Source of the DNA: Robertmurraya sp.
Lineage (GTDB): Bacteria; Bacillota; Bacilli; Bacillales; Cytobacillaceae
Assembly (NCBI GenBank): GCA_025451895.1
Contig: JANWJP010000076.1
Coordinates: forward strand, 1-48,469
DNA length: 48,469 bases
Direction of reading: 5' to 3'
The notes below the pieces were generated by a model. It saw only the letters and a list, made by a program, of their open reading frames with translations. It was not told the DNA's origin and did not search any database. A program made the translations under genes and the position numbers. Positions 5,209 through 17,266 of this stretch are shown here, in pieces. Each line of letters opens with the position of its first letter. Within the stretch, counting starts at the first letter, position 1.

Positions 5209-5244
5209 TAAAAATATAAAAAGAGACAAGGTGCGCCCTTCTCT
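5209..5244 (-). terminator. folD: Expression-platform terminator of the folD leader
   Basis: On the minus strand AGAGA-AGG pairs with CCT-TG-TCTCT (8 bp, 2-nt bulge, 5-nt loop). This is followed by TTTTTATATTTTT, directly after the riboswitch-like aptamer and before the folD ribosome site. Confidence 0.75.
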
Positions 5245-5246
5245 CC

Positions 5247-5319
5247 GCCCAGACGACCGGCATAATGTATTTTTGCAGCTCCCCGGTGGTCAATTCCACA
5301 TTGTCGTCAGTCACTGCGA
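5247..5319 (-). promoter_or_regulatory. ZTP (pfl) riboswitch aptamer upstream of folD
   Basis: Read on the minus strand, the conserved blocks of the pfl motif occur in order: GCAG (P1), ACTGACG, GTGGA, ACCAC (P2 pairs GTGG with CCAC), CGGGGAGC, CTGC (P1 partner), a linker, then GCCGGTCGTCTGGGC. An intrinsic terminator follows at once. Members of this class bind ZTP/ZMP, a sign of 10-formyl-THF shortage, and raise expression of folate and purine genes, including folD. The assignment is from memory of the consensus. Confidence 0.82.
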
Positions 5320-5344
5320 TAACATCACTATTTTTGGCAATTTC

Positions 5345-5373
5345 ATTATATTAAAAATGATTTAATAAAGCAA
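5345..5373 (-). promoter_or_regulatory. Sigma-A-type promoter of folD
   Basis: On the minus strand TTGCTT is followed by a 17-nt spacer and a perfect TATAAT. It lies 25 nt upstream of the riboswitch aptamer, the right distance for a start site just before it. Confidence 0.75.
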
Positions 5374-17052: not shown

Positions 17053-17102
17053 AAAAAAGAGCATGACAAATAAATGTTAAAGAATACCTTAACAAATACA
17101 GT

Positions 17103-17243
17103 CATCCTTCTCCCATCCAGACTTTAACTGTCGGCTTTGGAATCTCACCAAATCCACCGTTTTTATTTATTTTAAAAAAACGGGTCACGGGCTTAGAGGA
17201 AACCTCATCACCGCCGGTCGGGAATTTCACCACTGCCCCGAAG
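17103..17243 (-). promoter_or_regulatory. FMN riboswitch (RFN element)
   Basis: The minus strand contains the canonical RFN blocks: GGGGCAGTGGTGAAATTCCC, GACCGGCGGTGATGAGG, TTTCCTCTAAGCCCGTGACC, GGTGGATTTGGTGAGATTCC, AAAGCCGACAGTTAAAGTC and TGGATGGGAGAAGGATGA. FMN binding terminates transcription ahead of ribD-ribE-ribBA-ribH. Confidence 0.97.
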
Positions 17244-17266
17244 GATTATCCTATTCGATTAACACT

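Follow-up and report, generated by a model that had tools for sequence, protein, structure and literature searches.

The folD gene in the stretch of Robertmurraya sp. DNA analysed here (48,469 nucleotides, hereafter the window) is preceded on the minus strand by a ZMP/ZTP riboswitch aptamer and an intrinsic terminator that abuts it, and the leader as a whole is best explained as a transcriptional ON switch through which folD responds to ZTP, a reading in which we place good confidence. The aptamer, the terminator, their abutment and the gene were read from the sequence, and the ligand and the ON direction are those reported in the literature for the class. ZTP riboswitches are a standard model of co-transcriptional strand displacement, and if this Bacillales branch switches without shared strands, the strand-displacement model does not cover the entire class. 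A wider reading is put forward only tentatively: the Bacillales might possess a ZTP platform without alternative pairing, in which a ligand-locked aptamer, joined with zero spacer to the terminator base, blocks hairpin closure inside RNA polymerase, and this module would travel with a FolD lineage that took the place of the operon folD repeatedly and brought the supply of 10-formyl-folate under alarmone control.

Aptamer and layout of the folD leader

Positions 5324-5240 of the minus strand match the whole of the RF01750 (ZMP-ZTP) covariance model (1-86) with 61.7 bits (gathering score 39; E 1.1e-7 in the scan of the window and 1.7e-9 in the scan of the genome), so that the pfl aptamer proposed in the first-pass annotation is borne out by the model; the final bases of the match overlap the terminator stem. 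It is the single ZTP aptamer that the model found in the genome (3.2 Mb in 216 contigs, 95% complete). The J1/2 strand GACGAC (5308-5303) is fully complementary to GUCGUC (5257-5252) in the P3 loop, which makes six Watson-Crick pairs possible in the pseudoknot. P3 itself, placed by alignment to RF01750, consists of GCC 5261-5259 paired with GGC 5249-5247 and closes the loop GGUCGUCUG, which contains the second pseudoknot strand and a portion of the conserved CUGGGC. The model permits one extra P3 pair, a U.G that would use base 5246. The folding energy of the whole 149-nt leader is no better than that of shuffled sequences (z -0.64), but secondary-structure energy is blind to the pseudoknot; the covariance-model score is the relevant test.

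With its full length, its pseudoknot, its CUGGGC and its place before a one-carbon gene, folD, the aptamer resembles the rest of the RF01750 class and reads as a textbook member of it. The association itself is not new. In the excerpted text of PMC2864571, published in 2010, folD is one of the five genes most often linked to the pfl motif, which agrees with the pairing noted in the first pass and makes a ZTP switch before folD an ordinary member of the class. The logic assumed there, that folate shortage would raise ZTP and release folD, is likewise in line with the class literature, where folate shortage raises ZMP/ZTP and termination is relieved (PMC7266159, in part).

All the elements named in the first-pass annotation are present on the minus strand and in the order given, from promoter boxes through aptamer, terminator and ribosome site to folD. 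The feature drawn there at 5209-5373 holds the promoter boxes, the aptamer and the terminator, although its end at 5209 omits the Shine-Dalgarno sequence AGGAGG at 5206-5201; folD follows at 5192-4341 with a TTG start and encodes 283 aa. The proposed promoter, TTGCTT at 5373-5368 and TATAAT at 5350-5345 with a 17-nt spacer, stands as far as its boxes and spacing are concerned, but it is a putative one, a consensus match (9/12, with 3/6 in the -35 box) and the weakest part of the layout. A promoter scan demanding 4/6 matches per box did not report it because the -35 box falls short of that threshold. Promoter-like pairs with at least 9/12 matches occur in 20 of the 49 leaders of the folD lineage described below, and in shuffled leaders in 12.2 on average and 18 at the highest (20 rounds).

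The riboswitch-linked FolD lineage and the operon copy

The product of the window folD carries the domains PF00763 and PF02882 and has kept YxxxK, LLQ and KDVDG, the conserved active-site motifs of FolD. Together with its position in the tree, these features point to a methylenetetrahydrofolate dehydrogenase/cyclohydrolase of a riboswitch-linked lineage, here called type A. This lineage comprises 48 of 79 named FolD relatives, and the aptamer precedes folD in 48/48, whereas none of the 30 tested among the other 31 relatives (L107 left out; no Acinetobacter record among the 30) has a ZTP aptamer nearby. In a tree of 101 FolDs the 49 rows of the window group, among which is the aptamer-less G057, form a single clade (SH-aLRT 98). 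This clade lies apart from the operon-type FolDs of Bacillales, and its closest neighbours are 16 FolDs from proteobacteria and other phyla; the tree was built by a quick method, is unrooted, has long branches and leaves out L104 and L107, which were too short. Records of Acinetobacter baumannii FolD are 58.4% identical to the window FolD, and the closest solved structure is PDB 4b4u (340.6 bits), which we take to be the A. baumannii enzyme. One record named Pseudomonas sp. ISL-84 (L051) has the same kind of leader and a FolD that groups with Cytobacillus oceanisediminis, and it is probably misnamed or contaminated.

The link between enzyme and aptamer was followed at the levels of order and class, with adjacency read by hand from coordinate lists. 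In the order-level sample FolD was found at 1e-30 in 99 of 101 genomes with 114 matches, 32 of which are type A (identity at least 66%), and in 31 of these 32 the aptamer lies no more than 200 bases upstream. The FolD of the nusB-folD-xseA operon (type B) belongs to the same enzyme family and shares the conserved motifs, but it is only 39-53% identical to the window FolD, takes a separate place in the tree and has an adjoining ZTP aptamer in 0/79 order-level cases. The remaining 3 of the 82 matches outside type A are one fragment and two FolDs of a third type with aptamer (L003 = G007:C104 and L009 = G074:C4). These are 34-38% identical to the window FolD, have E for Q in LLQ and GFG or GHG in place of GRS, and their chemistry may therefore differ. 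Among the FolD matches listed for the class-level sample of 151 genomes, the aptamer accompanies 3/3 new type-A members and the FolDs of G135 and G193 (45-48% identity), and it is absent from two relatives of 58-62% identity. The idea that the aptamer is exclusive to type A was rejected, since it is also carried by the third type (G007, G074, G147) and by G135 and G193, where G147, from the class level, G135 and G193 were assigned to their types on percent identity alone and lie outside the tree. On these sequences the association of type A with the aptamer appears strong and non-exclusive.

Two loci point to losses within type A. In G057 (L193, G057:C142) no aptamer was found before the type-A folD at the gathering score, the leader is too short to hold one and a promoter-like sequence lies shortly 5' of the ribosome site, which looks like a natural loss of the riboswitch. 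In G019 a fragment at C39:20205-20465, 75% identical to the window FolD and interrupted by two stops, appears to be what is left of a type-A folD.

The gene order around xseA, located in 30 genomes with type A, bears on the fate of the operon copy. Wherever a second FolD is present it stands directly before xseA (9/9 genomes; G036, which has both FolDs, lies outside the xseA search), and this place therefore looks ancestral. Where type A is alone, a NusB-like ORF (40-70% identical to the NusB fragment of the window genome) directly precedes xseA with no FolD match between them in 20/20 genomes; G057, the thirtieth, has a cut xseA and is outside that count. The window genome gave one FolD at its 95% completeness, with nusB and xseA both at contig ends. 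A tree of XseA (29 rows) requires at least 7 changes between presence and absence of the operon folD, at least 4 of them on well-supported branches. The simplest reading of these arrangements, which concerns the relatives, is that the operon folD was lost repeatedly where the riboswitch copy was present. If true, the pattern is a clear case of a metabolite-regulated copy supplanting the copy of a conserved operon.

The operon folD might instead have been regained, or both FolDs might be old paralogues that were sorted differently. The trees lack a root, the number of changes says nothing about gain versus loss, and on the XseA tree the genomes with the operon folD cluster no more than under random relabelling (about a third of the 500 shuffles gave as low a value), all of which suits such a history. 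Nevertheless, the constant place of the operon FolD in genomes with both copies, the adjoining nusB and xseA in those with type A alone and the number of well-supported changes argue for replacement, and we consider regain or sorting of paralogues the less probable account, at perhaps one chance in a few. Among the literature titles searched, where 'folD' also matches 'fold' and subscription papers lie outside, none concerned replacement of FolD or an abutting ZTP terminator.

A terminator that abuts P3

The intrinsic terminator assigned in the first pass was recovered as a hairpin with the stem GGAGA.AAGG/CCUU.UCUCU at 5246-5222 and a U-rich tail at 5221-5210. Its energy of -12.9 kcal/mol (z -2.77) was equalled by 3 of 200 shuffles, and it has the G+C-containing hairpin trailed by a U tract, UUUUAUAUUUUU, that defines such terminators. 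A simple terminator scan passed over this hairpin, for which the G.G mismatch in its stem is the probable reason.

The stem starts at 5246, that is 0 nt past the three G-C pairs of P3, and its 5' arm contains no base of these pairs or of the pseudoknot. What the terminator and P3 can share is at most one wobble pair, the U.G at 5246, and in this the window leader differs from the RF01750 class as described. In the ZTP switches that have been studied, according to the excerpted texts of PMC10085676, PMC10687018, PMC7337938 and PMC7484762, aptamer bases lie within the terminator and the ligand blocks strand displacement. The excerpts on the switches of Clostridium beijerinckii (pfl), F. ulcerans and T. 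carboxydivorans describe the same transcriptional ON logic, the same P1/P2, P3 and pseudoknot and the same terminator output as proposed here, but in those switches P3 is part of the terminator (in C. beijerinckii the pseudoknot also), which it is not in the window. When P3 and its loop are locked in the predicted fold, the energy of the window leader is unchanged (-40.3 vs -40.3 kcal/mol) and the terminator is retained; competition for strands therefore leaves the switching of this leader unexplained. The platform thus appears, from its sequence, to be a variant outside the studied models.

How far the terminator stands from the GGC of P3 (its offset) was measured by one procedure in three sets of leaders, namely the 49 of the window's folD lineage (with a cut-off of -6 kcal/mol for a U-tailed terminator), 22 other order-level leaders, two of them before third-type FolDs, and 29 distant Bacillota loci in which P3 was located by pattern (7 without the pattern were dropped and 22 counted). 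A U-tailed terminator was found in 35 of the 49 lineage leaders, with an offset of 0 in 27, 1 in 2, -3 in 1 and -5 to -23 in 5. The last five (L034, L038, L063, L065, L068) share strands, since their terminators extend by 5 to 23 bases into P3 or past it, and in L065 the best hairpin that ends ahead of the start codon has an offset of 0. The other 14, which include L032 and L033, the two closest relatives, gave no U-tailed terminator at -6 kcal/mol; L070 has one. The second set has a terminator in 22/22, with an offset of 0 or 1 in 13, -3 in 1, -4 in 6, -21 in 1 and +27 in 1, and the seven that reach at least 4 bases into P3 include six that reach exactly 4, by weak pairs of GGG with the U-rich tail. 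In the distant set 20 of 22 terminators take in at least 8 bases of P3 and its loop, in agreement with the published switches; of the other two, L213 is a member of the window's own class and the hairpin assigned to L203 is doubtful.

For the first two sets together, a hairpin begins 0-2 nt past P3 in 67 of 71 leaders against 22.5 expected from dinucleotide shuffles, and an abutting hairpin of -6 kcal/mol or better with a U tract occurs in 54 of 71 against 2.6; because the 71 leaders are related to one another, neither count is made up of independent events. The abutting stems vary widely among leaders and the offset is mostly constant. Among 31 distinct outer stems, each of positions 3-7 holds a canonical pair in 26 to 30, and several pair types are represented at each; the canonical pairs at positions 1-2 follow from the way the stems were selected.

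The proposed switch would work as follows. RNA polymerase would start near 5338, judging from the promoter boxes, and would transcribe the aptamer first. At low ZMP/ZTP the weak P3, with its three G-C pairs, would yield, the adjoining terminator would close and transcription would end before folD. A shortage of 10-formyl-folate would raise ZMP/ZTP and lock P1, P3 and the pseudoknot; the polymerase would then read through, FolD would be made and formyl-folate restored. For intrinsic termination the base of the hairpin must close deep inside the RNA exit channel of the polymerase. A ligand-locked aptamer with no spacer to the terminator base would be kept out of this channel, so that the last pairs of the terminator stem would be unable to form, and an unbound aptamer with its three-pair P3 would melt and let the hairpin finish. 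Because the terminator and P3 have so little in common, the coupling between them is probably steric, as the geometry and general knowledge of termination suggest. A helix that acts inside the exit channel, by way of ligand-stabilised pausing, is reported for a manganese riboswitch (PMC11087558).

Classical strand displacement, in which the 3' arm of the terminator would invade P3 and the pseudoknot in the ligand-free state, is an unlikely mechanism for the window leader, where the stem begins past the G-C pairs of P3, shares no base of the loop and is predicted to coexist with P3 at no cost. It is the mechanism described, in the excerpts cited above, for the three studied switches, and the procedure used here does detect shared strands in the distant leaders and in a few relatives of the lineage, such as L034. 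In the window itself the GGG of P3 could wobble-pair with the U tract, giving a weak G.U invasion, and base 5246 may be contested by the U.G pair of P3. Elsewhere locking P3 costs from 0 to 5.6 kcal/mol over 29 non-redundant folD leaders, and base-pair competition may therefore contribute to switching there.

The ribosome site and neighbouring elements

Another possibility is that the leader acts on translation, alone or in addition to transcription, the 3' strand of P3 (UCUGG) pairing with CCAGGAGG and hiding the ribosome site until the ligand binds. This pairing has an energy of -8.5 kcal/mol and beats every other 10-base stretch of the aptamer that was compared. Near-duplicate ribosome sites were removed for the comparison with other genes (49 leaders reduced to 29, 149 control genes to 104), and of the 19 serA-type loci described below 18 entered the pairing comparison (12 after duplicates) and 12 the accessibility comparison (11 left). 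The pairing is stronger in the 29 leaders than in the 104 controls (median -6.9 vs -5.05, p = 5e-4), and CAG, CUG or CG stands immediately 5' of the purine core in 16/29 against 7/104; related leaders are not independent. Against this, the accessibility of the ribosome site in the predicted ensemble of the window leader is 0.33 both free and with P3 locked, and a gain above 0.2 was obtained in 5/29 folD leaders and 0/11 serA-type leaders (p = 0.077). Since the ensemble shows no change, translational or dual control of the window leader is unsupported and stays a rival only, one that we regard as improbable; pairing at the ribosome site may matter in some relatives, though not demonstrably in the window leader. 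In L033, L037, L061 and their kin the linker before P3, AUGUAUA, is by eye complementary to UAUACAU at the start codon, a possible masking of the start codon.

That the aptamer is a conserved relic, with folD roughly constitutive through a leaking terminator, is very improbable: the G.G mismatch weakens the window stem, in C. beijerinckii chimeras a G:G mismatch close to the base of the terminator increased leak (excerpt of PMC10085676) and the folD of G057 has no aptamer before it, but the high covariance-model score, the full complementarity of the pseudoknot and the retention of the aptamer in all the named relatives of the lineage speak against it.

Other elements were encountered near folD or with the same aptamer. 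The small RNA BsrC (RF01410) lies about 150-650 nt upstream of folD on the opposite strand at 25 loci (among L032-L066, L088 and L193), and the window gave no match to it even when hits with E as high as 1 were admitted. The second common context of ZTP aptamers in the order sample is a dehydrogenase of 368-401 aa, at 19 of 30 loci (L004-L030). The one member scanned with Pfam (L011) is a D-isomer specific 2-hydroxyacid dehydrogenase. The gene is presumably serA, and if so ZTP would be tied to serine-derived one-carbon units as well. At L008 (G030) the first long ORF past the aptamer begins 351 nt on, and its start resembles what we take to be an RRXRR/IscB-type protein. The window also contains an FMN riboswitch at 17101-17249 on the minus strand (RF00050, 112.5 bits).
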